64,000 nt of DNA from Natranaeroarchaeum sulfidigenes (GCF_017094485.1 NZ_CP064786.1:1240001-1304000), one strand, 5' to 3'; positions 49,043-55,399 are shown, counted from the stretch's first letter. The notes: a model not told the origin generated them from the sequence alone. A program made the numbers and translations.

Positions 49043-49477
49043 ATGACGATGACTCTTCCGCTTCTCGTTGACACACCGGGTGCGGACGTGGCGTTTCTGA
49101 TCGGTCGCGTCCTCTTCGGTGCTGTGCTGGCCTTTACGGGCCTGAACCACTTTCTCGATCTCGATGCGATGAGCGGCTACGCCGAGATGAAGGGAATACC
49201 GGCTCCGAGGCTGAGCGTCGCCTTCAGTGGCGGAATGTTGGTGTTCGGCGGACTGGGTGTCGCACTTGGCGTCTTTCCGATCATCGCTGCTGGCGCGCTG
49301 GCAGTGTTCCTACTCGTCACGACGCCGATGATGCATGATTTCTGGGCGGCTCCAGAGGATCAACAGCAACAGGAGATGACGCAGTTCCTGAAAAACGTTG
49401 CACTGCTCGGTGGTGCGCTCGTCTTGCTTGTGTTGGGCGGTGCTGACTGGGCCTACTCGCTCGGTATCGGTCTCTGA
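49043..49477 (+). CDS. DoxX-family membrane protein
   Basis: 144 aa with four hydrophobic segments. The motif FLIGRVLFGAVLAFTGLNHFLDLDAM is the DoxX opening, and FWAAPEDQQQQEMTQFLKNVALLGGALVL is its characteristic end, with the FxxP-type loop. DoxX proteins associate with thiosulfate:quinone oxidoreductase or with oxidative-stress defence in other organisms; the role here is unknown. It precedes the ABC exporter operon by 70 bases but the latter has its own TATA box. Confidence 0.88.
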   Translation: MTMTLPLLVDTPGADVAFLIGRVLFGAVLAFTGLNHFLDLDAMSGYAEMKGIPAPRLSVAFSGGMLVFGGLGVALGVFPIIAAGALAVFLLVTTPMMHDFWAAPEDQQQQEMTQFLKNVALLGGALVLLVLGGADWAYSLGIGL

Positions 49478-49514: not shown

Positions 49515-49522
49515 CTTTTATT
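49515..49522 (+). promoter_or_regulatory. TATA box of the ABC exporter operon
   Basis: CTTTTATT centred 30 bases before the GTG at 49548 fits a leaderless start and supports GTG as the initiation codon; the longer open frame from 49398 would overlap the doxX gene. Confidence 0.6.
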
Positions 49523-49547
49523 CCCCCGGTGCCTGCACCCGAGTAGT

Positions 49548-50420
49548 GTGATCGAGGTCGAGAATCTCCGCAAGGAGTACAGTGGATTTGTCGCGGTCGA
49601 GGACAGCACGTTCGAGGTCGACTCGGGCGAGGTGTTCGGTATCGTCGGCCCGAACGGAGCGGGAAAGACGACGACGCTGAAGATGCTCGCCGGCTTGATC
49701 GAGCCAACTGCTGGCACCGCCACCGTCGCTGGCGTCCAGGCTGGCGAGACCGAGATGCGCCAGAACCTCGGCTTTCTCCCCGAGGAGTCGCCGCTCTATG
49801 AAGACATGACGGCGATATCGTATCTCAACTTTTTTGCCGACCTTTATGACGTGCCAAAGGATGTTGCAACTGAGCGGATCACGGAAACGCTCGACCGGCT
49901 CGATCTCGAACACCGAAACCGGTCGATCGGTGACATGTCGAAGGGGATGAAGCGGAAGGTCGCCATCGCCCGCGCACTGGTTAACGATCCCGACGTCCTG
50001 ATATTCGACGAACCGGCCAGCGGACTCGACCCGCTGACGACCAACTACATTATCGAGTTCACCCGCGAACTGAGCGAGGAGGGCCGTACCGTCGTGTTCA
50101 GCGCGCACAACCTCTTTCACGTCGAGAGCATCTGTGACCGACTCGTCGTGATGAACCGCGGCGAGATTATCGCCAGAGGCACCATCGAGGGGATCCGTGA
50201 GCGCCATGGAACGTCCTCCTACACGGTGTATACAGATGTCGAAGTGCCCGATAGTGCCCAGAAGAACGGGCGGTTCGTCCGTGAAGCCGAGGATATGGAA
50301 GCAGTCGAAGATATTCGGGAGCGGGCGATCGCCGCAGGCGGGTCGGTGGTCGACATTCAGACGGAGACCCCGAGCCTCGAAGATATCTTCCTCGATATCG
50401 CCGGGGAGGCAGAGGCGTGA
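49548..50420 (+). CDS. ABC transporter ATP-binding protein (ABC-2 exporter type)
   Basis: 290 aa from a GTG. Walker A is GPNGAGKTTT, the Q loop is in NLGFLPEESPLYEDM, the signature is MSKGMKRKVAIARAL, Walker B is VLIFDEPASGLDP, and the H loop is VVFSAHNL. The C-terminal 70 residues resemble the regulatory tail of NatA/CcmA-like exporters. It powers the two permeases encoded downstream; the first overlaps its stop by four bases. Confidence 0.95.
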   Translation: MIEVENLRKEYSGFVAVEDSTFEVDSGEVFGIVGPNGAGKTTTLKMLAGLIEPTAGTATVAGVQAGETEMRQNLGFLPEESPLYEDMTAISYLNFFADLYDVPKDVATERITETLDRLDLEHRNRSIGDMSKGMKRKVAIARALVNDPDVLIFDEPASGLDPLTTNYIIEFTRELSEEGRTVVFSAHNLFHVESICDRLVVMNRGEIIARGTIEGIRERHGTSSYTVYTDVEVPDSAQKNGRFVREAEDMEAVEDIRERAIAAGGSVVDIQTETPSLEDIFLDIAGEAEA

Positions 50421-52282
50421 AGCCGCGAAAAACGCTCCGGGTGGCCCGCTGGGAACTGAGTCGTTCGGTCGGATCGGTCGACAAACGAACGGCGATCCTC
50501 GGCATTTTCGGACTGATACTCGTCTTCGGTGGCGGTCTCGCAGTGTTTGGCGGGAGCGTCGCCTTTGACGATGATATTTATCGGGTTGGCATTCCGCAAG
50601 ACAGCAGTTACTACGACGCCGTTGACGAGCATTCCGCGCTCAAACCCGTCTCCCCTGAAGACGACCTGATAGAGCGCGGCGATGCCGAGATCATGCTGGA
50701 GCCATACGGACCAGGCGGCTACGAGTTATCACAGGCGGAAACACAGAAAGGCGACGCCGCGATGGGCGAGTTCGAGGCGGCGATCGACGGCTACAACTTC
50801 CGGACGATGTCGGCCGAGAGCAACCAGACTGCCGCGTTCCCGGTGCTCGTCGACCTCCGGTACGAGGCTGGCGGAACCGGTGGGACGGTTATCGACGAGG
50901 ACCCGGCCGACACGACTCCGGATGATGCCGAAGAAACCGAGAGTGATGGCGATACCGGGACAGACGACGGGCAAGAACGGGACCCGGAGAACGGTGACAC
51001 AGACGACGGCAGGGTCGACGGTGACGAAGCCGGGGATGGGGACGACACTGCCGACAGCGACGACGATCCTGCGCCCGGCGATAGCTCGGATACTGGAAAC
51101 TGGATCAGCGACGCTATCGCCGGAGATGGTGTCGTGGATACACCTGCTGGAATCTCTCCACCCTTCCCTTTCGGCTCGCTGGTGCTTGCATTTCTGTTTA
51201 TTATTCCGATGAACTTCGTCATCCAGCTCTACGGTAGTTCGATCATGAACGAGCGGATTAACCGCCGCGGCGAACTGTTGCTCGTCGCGCCGGTGAGCCG
51301 TGGCGACGTGATCGTCGGAAAGACGTTACCGTATCTCGCCGCACTGGTCGTTGTCTCGGTCGCCATCGCCCTCGCGATCGAGGGCGGTCCAGTCTCTATC
51401 GCTGCCGTCGTTCCGATCGCCCTGTTATTCCTCGCTTCGACCTTCGTCGGCGCGATGTTCGCCCGTTCCTTCAAGGAGTTGACGTTCGTGACGGTGACGA
51501 TCAGCGTCTTGCTGACCTCGTACGTGTTCGTCCCGGCGATCTTCACCGAAATAACACCGATCGCACTGATATCGCCGTTGACGCTGGTCGTCTGGGATCT
51601 ACAGGGCGAGGCCGTCTCGGCGCTGCAGTACACGTTCTCTACCGGTGCGTTCTACCTCCTGAGCGTGCTCCTGTTCGGACTCGGGGCTGGCGTCTACCGC
51701 GAGGAAGACATGTTCTCACAGCGCTCAATTCACCTGAAAGTGCTGGATGCCCTGGCGAACTACGTCGCCGGGCTGAAAAGCGTCGCGGCGATCAGCGCGC
51801 TCATGATCCCCGTTGTATTCGTCGCCCAGTTACTCGCTGTGACGATTCTGTTTGCACTGCCGGAGGCGTTTGCGCTTCCCGTCTTGCTCCTGTGGATCTC
51901 CTGTACCGAGGAGCTTGCAAAGAGCCTGCACATCTACGCAGGCTACGCACACAACCGGTTCGACCGCTCAATCCGCACCGCGGTCGCCGTCGGTGCGGCG
52001 AGCGGGCTGGGCTTTTTCCTCGCCGAGAAAGTGACACACGTCGCCCAGATCGTCGGGATCACACAGCTAGAACTGGGTGCGGCCGCGTTCCCGACGACCG
52101 AGGCCGTCTCTCCAGTACTCGCGGTCGGGCTCTTTTTCCTGCCGCTTGCGCTGCATGTCCTCACCGCAGTCGTCTCCACGATCGGTGCGCGACGCGACCG
52201 AGTTCACTACATGGCGATGCTCGTCCTCGCTATCTCGATCCACACGCTGTACAACTACGTGGTGATCTTCCATGTCCAGTAA
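50417..52282 (+). CDS. ABC-2 permease fused to a PrsW-like intramembrane protease domain
   Basis: 621 aa. Residues 1-430 are an ABC-2 permease: TM1 near 28-48, a 200-residue outer loop whose part 160-230 is Asp/Glu/Gly-rich and disordered, then about five helices from 252. Residues 455-620 are extra helices carrying CTEELAKS (Glu498, Glu499), GLGFFLAEKVTH (Glu537), LALHVLTAVVSTIG (His580) and SIHTLYNY (His609, Asn613), the conserved pattern of PrsW/Rce1 glutamic intramembrane proteases. The fusion suggests a transporter that clips its own cargo or a membrane substrate. It overlaps the ATPase gene by four bases and the next permease by eleven. Confidence 0.85.
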   Translation: MKPRKTLRVARWELSRSVGSVDKRTAILGIFGLILVFGGGLAVFGGSVAFDDDIYRVGIPQDSSYYDAVDEHSALKPVSPEDDLIERGDAEIMLEPYGPGGYELSQAETQKGDAAMGEFEAAIDGYNFRTMSAESNQTAAFPVLVDLRYEAGGTGGTVIDEDPADTTPDDAEETESDGDTGTDDGQERDPENGDTDDGRVDGDEAGDGDDTADSDDDPAPGDSSDTGNWISDAIAGDGVVDTPAGISPPFPFGSLVLAFLFIIPMNFVIQLYGSSIMNERINRRGELLLVAPVSRGDVIVGKTLPYLAALVVVSVAIALAIEGGPVSIAAVVPIALLFLASTFVGAMFARSFKELTFVTVTISVLLTSYVFVPAIFTEITPIALISPLTLVVWDLQGEAVSALQYTFSTGAFYLLSVLLFGLGAGVYREEDMFSQRSIHLKVLDALANYVAGLKSVAAISALMIPVVFVAQLLAVTILFALPEAFALPVLLLWISCTEELAKSLHIYAGYAHNRFDRSIRTAVAVGAASGLGFFLAEKVTHVAQIVGITQLELGAAAFPTTEAVSPVLAVGLFFLPLALHVLTAVVSTIGARRDRVHYMAMLVLAISIHTLYNYVVIFHVQ

Positions 52283-53345
52283 GGGTGGACGTCCACGGAT
52301 CCGCATCTCGCTCCGAGAACTCTCGACGCTCAAAAGCGAGAAGACGATCGTCCTCGCCCTGCTGATCCAGCTCGTGATCGCAGCGTTCTCGTCGTTCCTC
52401 GTGGTCGGGCTGGTTTCGCTGTACGATCCGGCGAGCGCAGGGGGTGAGGTATCGGTTGGCGTCTCCGGGGAACACCGACACGACCTCGCCAGCGTCGCGA
52501 GCGACCAAGAAAACGTCGAGACGGTAACGTTCGACGATCCCGAGGGCGCACAAAGCGCGTATCAGGCTGGCGCAATCGACGCCGTCCTGGTTGCGGAGGG
52601 AAGCGGAGACGGTCGGATACAGGTGGAGACGACCGTTCCGCCCGATGGGATTGAATCGACCGTCGTCGTGACGAGCCTTCAGGACGTATTACTCCAGTAC
52701 GAGGCGTTCGAGCGGAACCAGCGTGGTGCGTATCTGGATAACCAGCCGCTCACGGGACCCGACAACCCTGATCCAGCGCCGTATTACGGGTTCACCTACA
52801 CCGTTCTCGTGCCGTTGCTGCTCTTGCTTCCGGTGTTTATCAGCGGTAGCCTCGCTGTCGATACGATCAGCGAGGAACTGGAGCGTGGTACGTTCGAGTT
52901 GCTCGCGGTCGCCCCTATCGAGATGGGAGAGATCATCGACGGAAAGCTACTGACAGCGGCGCTGCTAGCTCCTGCACAGGCCGCATTGTGGCTTGTACTA
53001 TTGCGGGTGAACGGAACGCCGATCGAGAACGTCCCGGCGTTGCTCACGATCGTCGGTGCCCTCGCCCTCGCGGTAGTTTCCATGGGGATCGGCCTCGCGC
53101 TCGTGACGACCGATCGGCGGCAGGCACAGTTCCTCTACTCCTTTGGCATCCTCGCCATCGCGATGGTGACGGCGCTGCTGCCCGAACACCCCCTCAATAC
53201 GATCGCAAAGCTGGCGATCGGCAGCCCGGCAATATCGACGTGGATCGCGGTAGCAGGCTATGCCCTTCTGGGCGTCCTGTGCCTGTTCGTACTGCAGCTC
53301 GCCGTCTCACGGCTTGACGTCGAGCGAATCGTCAGTTCGGACTAG
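52272..53345 (+). CDS. ABC-2 type permease
   Basis: 357 aa. A cytoplasmic N-terminus (RIRISLRELSTLKSEKT) leads into TM1 (IVLALLIQLVIAAFSSFLVVGL), a long outer loop (50-175), and five helices from 176 (VLVPLLLLLPVFISGSLAVD), including the EELERGTFELLAVAPI coupling segment. It is the second half of the exporter heterodimer. The cargo is not identifiable. Its stop is part of a CTAG shared with the convergent macro-domain gene. Confidence 0.92.
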   Translation: MSSKGGRPRIRISLRELSTLKSEKTIVLALLIQLVIAAFSSFLVVGLVSLYDPASAGGEVSVGVSGEHRHDLASVASDQENVETVTFDDPEGAQSAYQAGAIDAVLVAEGSGDGRIQVETTVPPDGIESTVVVTSLQDVLLQYEAFERNQRGAYLDNQPLTGPDNPDPAPYYGFTYTVLVPLLLLLPVFISGSLAVDTISEELERGTFELLAVAPIEMGEIIDGKLLTAALLAPAQAALWLVLLRVNGTPIENVPALLTIVGALALAVVSMGIGLALVTTDRRQAQFLYSFGILAIAMVTALLPEHPLNTIAKLAIGSPAISTWIAVAGYALLGVLCLFVLQLAVSRLDVERIVSSD

Positions 53346-53851
53346 CCGTCGTCAAACTGCTCGGTCGCGGCTTCGATAATGGCGTACTCCTCATCGCCAT
53401 ACGCGATAAACCGCACCTCTGAGAGCGTGTTCGGTTCGTACGCGTCGATCGTTTCACCGATGAGTTCCGCCCCCGTTTCGAGATCGAAGCCAGCGACGCC
53501 ACAGCCAAGCGCCGGGAGCACGAGAGAGCGACAGCCGAGCTCGTCCGCGGTTTCCAGCGAGCTTCGTGTTGCAGAGCGGATGCTGTCCGCTGTCGCCTGT
53601 CCATCGCCATAGTGAGGCATTGCCGCCGCGTGGATGACGTACTCCGCGTCGAGGGCGTAGGCGTCTGTCACCGCGACATCACCCAGATCGATCGGCCCCT
53701 CCGACATCGCTTCCTCGTTGATCTCCGGGCCCGCCCGACGTTTGATCGCACCGGCAACACCGCTTCCCATCCGGAGGCTCGTTCCTGCCGCGTTGACCAG
53801 CACGTCCGCGGACTGTGCAGCGATATCGCCCTGAACAGTCTCGAAGTTCAT
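53342..53851 (-). CDS. Macro-domain ADP-ribose-binding protein
   Basis: 169 aa from the ATG at 53851; an upstream start would add ten residues. The ADP-ribose pocket is visible as VQGDIAAQSADVLVNAAG, MGSGVAGAIKRRAGPE and the phosphate loop LPALGCGVAGF. Members remove ADP-ribose from proteins or hydrolyse O-acetyl-ADP-ribose. It converges with the exporter permease, sharing a CTAG for both stop codons. Confidence 0.93.
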   Translation of the reverse strand: MNFETVQGDIAAQSADVLVNAAGTSLRMGSGVAGAIKRRAGPEINEEAMSEGPIDLGDVAVTDAYALDAEYVIHAAAMPHYGDGQATADSIRSATRSSLETADELGCRSLVLPALGCGVAGFDLETGAELIGETIDAYEPNTLSEVRFIAYGDEEYAIIEAATEQFDDG

Positions 53852-53971
53852 ACTGACACCTCTGGTTTCCGGCTCCCTCATTGTACCGGTAATCGTGCCA
53901 ATTCAGCACACACCATGAAAACATAGATATGGCTTCAATAAGTAGTAAACACTGAGACCAAACCCCGCATC

Positions 53972-55399
53972 ATGACCGTGGATCTTCCTCCGGAGCCGTA
54001 CGCCGAATACCTCGATATCCTCCGTGACATCGGACTTCCGGACGACGATATTCGGTCGCTACACGCGGGCGAGAGCGACGCGGTAGCCGAGGGACCACTG
54101 CTGGCGTTCGTACAGGAGCGTCTCGACGGGGACGACCCGAGGGCGCTGGCTCGCCGACTGGTCGACGTCCTGACCCAATCGAGACGGGGCATGAACGTTA
54201 CCGGCAGTTACTGGAACTACGCGCCGGAGGTCCACCTGAACGAGGTGTTCGAGCCATACGGCTGTTCGGTCACCTTCCGCGATGCGACACATGGAAACGG
54301 CCAATCGAGCTTCGAGGTCGTTCTCGAAGATGCCTCCGGGACGGGACACCGGATCACCTTCGAGTACCCGGAGACACCACTCGAAGACGACAACTTCCCG
54401 GCGCTGCTCGCGGCGATCGAACGCCAGCTGCTCTCGAACACTGATCTGACGTTCGTGTTGATGCGTCCGATCGACCGACGCTGGCGCGTCCTCATGATCG
54501 AGAACGCCCGACTTGATCGGCTCCGGGCGAAGTACGGCGATCGTATCGAGTTCGCTGGTGTTCCGCTCCTGCGCGAGGACCAGCTCGATGCCTTCGAGAG
54601 CGGTGAGGCAACGGCAGTCAAACCCCACGTCGGGGAAACGACGGCGGGAACAGGTCGGAATCGGAGTACGGTCGATCGACGCAAGCGACCGGACGCGACG
54701 GACGAACTGCTCGCGCGGACGACCGGTCCTGCCGTCGCCCCGACACCCCACCCTGACGCCGACGCGGATCCCGATGCGGTGTTCGGCGGCTCCCCTGACG
54801 ATCTCGCCGCACAGGCGGGCGGGGAGGATACCGGGCACACGCTGGCTGAGGTAGAAGCCTCCGATGGCGACCTCAAACAGGTGTTTGGCGACCTTTCGGA
54901 GGTTTCGCTCGAACCCGTTACTCAGGAGGCGAACGACCGGAGTTCAGTCGATGAACCGGTCGCTCTCGGCACACCAGCAGCGACCAGCGAGGAGTCGGAG
55001 CCTAGCGGTCTTGACGAACTGTTCGAGCAGATCGAACGCGAAGCGCTTACCGACGATGACGCCGCCGCCCCGGCCGGTCCGGGTGACGGGTCTGCGGCCG
55101 TTGCCGCAGCAGGTTCCGGTGGCTCGTTGGTATCGGTATCCGGCAACCGATCGACCCCCGTACCCTCGGACGACGACGAGACGCCGAACGAATCGTTAGT
55201 TGACGAACTGATCGGCGAGTCTTCGGAGGCTGACCGTGAAACTACCACGGATACCGGAACGAACCGTGAGGAGAACGAAACCGAGAGCTCGGATGGTGCG
55301 TCCGATGGCAACGACAGTGCGTCCGACACCGCCGGAGACAGTGACGACGCTTCCGGCGGGTTCAACTGGGTGAGTGACGACGAGCTTGCCACTCGCTAG
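53972..55399 (+). CDS. Haloarchaeal protein with folded N-terminus and long acidic disordered tail
   Basis: 475 aa. Residues 1-205 look globular (a helical start, then a beta-rich region with VTGSYWNYAPEVHLNEVFEPYG and RWRVLMIENARLDRLRAKYG). Residues 215-475 are low complexity, rich in Asp, Glu, Ser, Thr, Gly and Ala, with a few short hydrophobic patches (LDELFEQIEREAL, SLVDELIGE). I do not recognise a function. It converges with the next gene and shares a CTAG stop with it; the pair may be a conserved unit next to hisC. Confidence 0.7.
   Translation: MTVDLPPEPYAEYLDILRDIGLPDDDIRSLHAGESDAVAEGPLLAFVQERLDGDDPRALARRLVDVLTQSRRGMNVTGSYWNYAPEVHLNEVFEPYGCSVTFRDATHGNGQSSFEVVLEDASGTGHRITFEYPETPLEDDNFPALLAAIERQLLSNTDLTFVLMRPIDRRWRVLMIENARLDRLRAKYGDRIEFAGVPLLREDQLDAFESGEATAVKPHVGETTAGTGRNRSTVDRRKRPDATDELLARTTGPAVAPTPHPDADADPDAVFGGSPDDLAAQAGGEDTGHTLAEVEASDGDLKQVFGDLSEVSLEPVTQEANDRSSVDEPVALGTPAATSEESEPSGLDELFEQIEREALTDDDAAAPAGPGDGSAAVAAAGSGGSLVSVSGNRSTPVPSDDDETPNESLVDELIGESSEADRETTTDTGTNREENETESSDGASDGNDSASDTAGDSDDASGGFNWVSDDELATR

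Follow-up and report, generated by a model that had tools for sequence, protein, structure and literature searches.

Coupling between ABC transporters and intramembrane proteases has been described in bacteria. EcsAB is coupled to RasP or Eep in Bacillus subtilis and Staphylococcus aureus, and PptAB is coupled to Eep; these pairs deal with peptides in the membrane and with what is left of signal peptides (PMC2996298, PMC7157817). Mutations in ecs block cleavage by RasP, and a membrane-cleaning role has been proposed (PMC2996298); in S. aureus, Eep and EcsAB are both needed for the secretion of linear peptides (PMC7157817). The archaeal locus analyzed here, an ABC exporter whose first permease is fused to a PrsW-like domain, resembles these systems by functional analogy. 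Unlike it, they are bacterial, are encoded by separate genes and use a site-2 metalloprotease. PrsW (PF13367, MEROPS M82) follows a scheme of EExxK in TMH3, a histidine in TMH5 that Rce1 lacks, and HxxxD in TMH6 (PMC4602095), and most PrsW proteins have eight transmembrane helices (PMC3482391). CPBP/Rce1 (PF02517) is a distant superfamily relation with a similar motif scheme. A fusion of a permease to a CPBP protease is already known as NF041647 (ABC_perm_CPBP, ABC transporter permease subunit/CPBP intramembrane protease, 636 positions). By name and length this model has the same architecture as the protein described here, from which it differs in protease type, predicted here to be PrsW rather than CPBP. 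The fusion protein does not match NF041647 at E≤1 (cut-off 435 bits); the model does match the second permease of the same operon, at 41 bits and thus far under its cut-off, and it also hits free-standing CPBP proteins encoded by the genome. In the literature we searched, most of it openly accessible, we found no paper describing a permease-PrsW fusion, and a recent review of the membrane proteases of Haloferax volcanii names HVO_0408 as the one PrsW homologue, its accessible portion making no mention of the permease-PrsW fusion family (PMC9263693).

The window, that is, the whole 64,000-nucleotide stretch of DNA that was analyzed, belongs to an archaeal genome of 3.04 Mb (G000:C1:1240001-1304000) related to Halobacteriales. 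As the earlier note had described, it contains three overlapping open reading frames on the plus strand. The first (49548..50420) encodes a DrrA/GldA-like ABC exporter ATPase of 290 aa with a GTG start (Pfam ABC_tran, 108 bits; DrrA1-3_C, 31 bits), which is conserved beside the fusion gene. It overlaps by 4 bases the fusion gene itself (50417..52282; 621 aa), which in turn overlaps by 11 bases a gene for a second ABC-2 permease of 357 aa that has no protease domain (52272..53345; ABC2_membrane_3, 57 bits). A TTTTATT stretch (49515-49548) lies about 25-30 bases 5' of the GTG start, a position that suggests a leaderless ATPase transcript. Leaderless transcripts are common in haloarchaea. Directly upstream of the ATPase gene is a gene for a DoxX-family membrane protein (49043-49477, plus strand), which is not conserved beside the module. 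On the other side, a macro-domain (ADP-ribose binding) gene (53342-53881, minus strand; PF01661, 107 bits) converges on the second permease gene, tail to tail, in an arrangement that is likewise not conserved, and is followed by a gene (53972-55399, plus strand) for a 475-aa protein that has no Pfam match and whose long C-terminal half is rich in Asp, Glu and Ser.

The note had assigned residues 1-430 of the fusion protein (50417..51706, plus strand) to an ABC-2 permease, and profile comparisons back this. Matches to ABC2_membrane_2/3 are weak in the window protein and stronger in relatives (42 bits in L094), and by hhalign this part is similar to the second permease at 99.1% probability. By hydropathy it has a first transmembrane helix near residues 27-42, a long loop, and TM2-TM6. 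The three-gene unit is thus, as judged from these profiles and from the conservation of the module, a predicted ABC-2 exporter in which an ATPase is paired with ABC-2 permeases. The RefSeq label of one homologue reads only 'ABC transporter permease subunit'. The long outer loop between TM1 and TM2 ends in a linker of variable length that forms its second half (residues 149-248; 50861..51160, plus strand) and is probably disordered. The Asp/Glu-rich stretch that had been singled out is present here, at 35% D/E, but it is no distinguishing feature: D/E content ranges from 7 to 36% in other haloarchaea and from 7 to 40% elsewhere, and outside haloarchaea the linker is often rich in Pro/Thr/Ala or in Glu/Lys. 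As length and composition vary by lineage, we rejected a special role for the acidic loop, which is the ordinary halophilic form of a probably disordered linker, without special meaning.

The C-terminal part of the fusion (residues 436-621; 51722..52279, plus strand) has no PrsW match in Pfam or NCBIfam, and NF033739 does not reach it. We therefore put the question of its identity to its relatives. When 98 genomes of the order were searched in six frames with PF13367, the model found strong standalone PrsW proteins and also scored above its curated cut-off of 23.5 bits in the C-terminal part of many fusion homologues. In a sibling of the same genus (G046) it scores 29.6 bits by this search, although it is absent from the full-length hmmscan listing; hmmscan of full-length relatives leaves the PrsW domain unlisted for most but gives 37.6 bits in one (L253). 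In this respect the fusion domain, which lies mostly under the Pfam detection limit, is unlike PrsW proper. When a profile of 40 fusion-domain sequences was compared by hhalign with 27 standalone haloarchaeal PrsW proteins, the two aligned at 95.6% probability (P=4.5e-9) with their motifs in register. The controls, namely either permease against PrsW and the domain against the permeases, gave at most 0.1%. With a larger alignment, the domain scored 94.1% against PrsW, 3.7% against haloarchaeal CPBP and at most 1% against the permeases. A PDB sequence search gave no meaningful match.

The notion that these C-terminal helices are ordinary ABC permease helices with a coincidental motif, to which the missing Pfam match in the window protein itself might have lent some weight, is refuted by the profile comparison and by conservation: similarity to the permeases is 0-1% against 94-96% to PrsW, the catalytic set is invariant (below), and relatives exceed the PF13367 cut-off. 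We regard this reading as extremely improbable. The comparisons support placing the domain with the PrsW family, and so narrow the proposal that it is a PrsW/Rce1 glutamic protease: the PrsW half stood, and the CPBP/Rce1 half did not. Consistent with this, EExxK, FxxxE, the TMH5 histidine and HxxxN/D occur in the same order and at nearly identical spacing as in PrsW, whereas CPBP/Rce1 (PF02517) has EExxxR in place of EExxK, and Rce1 lacks the extra histidine (H580; PMC4602095). The domain also differs from PrsW in its fusion to an ABC permease and in its helix count. Hydropathy and a low-confidence model give about five transmembrane helices after the permease part, fewer than the eight of most PrsW proteins, and it therefore appears to be a reduced version; as the count is below the typical one, though not strictly defining, we call the domain PrsW-like. 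The four motif helices are kept. The genome encodes one standalone PrsW (L032; G000:C1:2553150-2553758; 141-144 bits), which has a long acidic C-terminal tail, and four separate CPBP/Rce1-like proteins (G000:C1:737582, 722680, 2466754, 2503592); almost every genome searched in the order has a PF13367 protein (91 of 98).

To ask whether the domain is likely to be active, we pooled 222 loci from searches and targeted fetches, and detected the domain in 221 of them. These yielded 199 distinct domains, 85 of which come from beyond the order; their median pairwise identity is 33% and the minimum 15%. The only columns that are 100% invariant are E498, E499, K502, E537, K538, H580 and H609, that is, the PrsW motif residues plus one lysine, K538. 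All the motifs named in the earlier note, EExxK at 498-502, GLGFF..E at 530-537, H580 and HTLYN at 609-613, were found in the window protein. EExxK (E498, E499 and K502; 51908..51922) is unchanged in all 198 distinct homologues that cover it. In FxxxEK (52013..52030), which lies in the next TM helix, E537 and K538 are present in 199/199 and F533 in 198/199. H580 (52154..52156), the counterpart of the conserved histidine in PrsW TMH5 (PMC4602095), and H609, the first residue of HxxYN (52241..52255; the PrsW HxxxN/D), are each present in 199/199. F533, P576 and Y612 are kept at ≥98.5%, and residue 613 is Asn in 182 domains and Asp in 17. The motif residues are not due to chance, because they are the fully invariant columns in 199 domains. 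The sole locus under the detection threshold (L190) has diverged, and on reading retains EExxK, FxxxEK, the histidine and HxxYN; we found no inactive copy among the pooled loci. Since almost nothing but motif residues never changes, we infer that the fused PrsW-like domain is catalytically active. K538 (52028-52030), invariant in 199/199, corresponds to Asn in the standalone PrsW proteins L032 and L033, so that EK replaces the EN that follows the second motif of PrsW; this lysine may mark a distinct subfamily.

AlphaFold2 models, each built from a two-sequence alignment, are unreliable both for the domain (pLDDT 44.8) and for the full fusion (pLDDT 33.7). In a mean-field coevolution analysis of 198 sequences (effective number 125), the EExxK and HxxxN helices gave the strongest signal, with six pairs in antiparallel register (p=0.006 for register concentration). 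Coevolving pairs are enriched between helices c-d (12) and d-e (13) against about 4 expected. This pattern agrees with the PrsW/Rce1 core and gives weak to moderate support for packing of the EExxK helix against the HxxxN helix.

The earlier note had asked for a survey of haloarchaeal genomes, and the fusion proved to be widespread. Matches to the window protein, a few of them weak and partial, occur in 209/293 sampled genomes of the order, and a profile search within the same phylum finds the fusion in 14 further families. Wherever the protease domain was detected (221/221 loci), it lies in the same open frame as the permease, and there is usually one copy of the module per genome. Among near-complete genomes of the order, 189/255 carry it; as about a quarter do not, it is not an indispensable clearing machine. 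When genome contigs were scanned with just the domain, a single locus came up, in Halorientalis. We found no relatives in the viral contigs searched, and the plasmid search returned one (L133), on a 540-kb megaplasmid (Haladaptatus salinisoli plasmid unnamed3), where a gene whose annotation reads 20S proteasome subunit A/B lies two genes from the module. To define the neighborhood, 40 loci were read with flanks of about 8 kb, seven of them gene by gene. The second permease gene follows the fusion gene in 40/40, and the ATPase gene lies beside it or nearby, with two exceptions. Beyond the order, the ATPase gene usually points the opposite way, although the three genes stay together in the 14 further families. 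No fourth gene is conserved near the module across this set. A dedicated cargo peptide is therefore unlikely, and the survey gave no support to the suggestions, made from the window, of a peptide cargo or a linked membrane regulator.

Collectively, we favor a model, to which we assign a probability of about 0.5, in which an ABC exporter works together with an active PrsW-type protease, so that peptides embedded in the membrane are cut and taken out. The substrates of the PrsW-type domain would be hydrophobic segments inserted in the membrane, for example leftover signal peptides or the stubs of other membrane cleavages, and the ATP-driven permease pair would clear the resulting fragments out of the bilayer, either outward or into the cytosol. 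With the protease fused to the permease pair that removes the fragments, cleavage and clearance would take place within one complex. The arrangement would in essence be EcsAB plus RasP/Eep combined, with a different protease family. That transport is coupled to cleavage had been suggested from the window sequence and is still something we infer from sequence, strengthened by phylum-wide conservation in one frame. No cargo gene was found, the module is widely distributed, and a genome usually has one copy; these features argue for a general function, and the module may be a general machine for clearing or processing membrane peptides rather than an exporter for one dedicated peptide. The ABC motor might even pull transmembrane segments from the bilayer and feed them to, or take them from, the fused PrsW site. 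We consider such an ATP-driven intramembrane protease unlikely; if true, it would be an archaeal machine for membrane-protein extraction and degradation of an undescribed kind.

Other functions would fit the same architecture. A doubtful but conceivable one is signaling, in which a stressor such as a membrane-active compound is bound by the exporter and thereby switches on the fused protease, whose target would be a membrane-anchored regulator. In B. subtilis, PrsW cuts RsiW at site 1 as part of the resistance to antimicrobial peptides (PMC4602095). The grouping of the domain with the PrsW family fits such a role, and the large outer loop could serve as a sensor, but neither a regulator nor an anchored transcription factor is conserved next to the module. 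To our knowledge, Archaea have no sigma/anti-sigma pairs of the RsiW type, and the target would therefore need to be something else. We think it improbable that the exporter processes one specific secreted peptide, archaeocin- or pheromone-like and encoded elsewhere, with the PrsW domain as its leader peptidase. Eep does work with EcsAB in peptide secretion (PMC7157817), and bacterial PrsW domains occur fused to exported toxins (PMC3482391); nevertheless, no cargo or modifying gene is conserved beside the module in 40 loci, and the module occurs in most of the order's genomes and throughout the phylum, unlike bacteriocin systems with their patchy occurrence. The domain could also act mainly on its own complex or on the partner permease, or be a structural helper with a little-used active site, as it lies in cis and no external substrate is known. 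That all the motif residues are strictly invariant speaks against a role that is only structural, and we hold self-regulation or assembly to be quite unlikely.

The preferred reading, in which an exporter and a PrsW-type protease cut and clear membrane-embedded peptides together, bears on how transporters and intramembrane proteases cooperate. The coupling of EcsAB with RasP and of PptAB with Eep has so far come from genetics with separate genes. Here, the exporter permease and the predicted protease are one polypeptide, conserved across an archaeal phylum and yet labelled only as a permease in the public annotation examined. Because the two parts are joined, their coupling would be testable by point mutants in one gene of a tractable haloarchaeon or methanogen.
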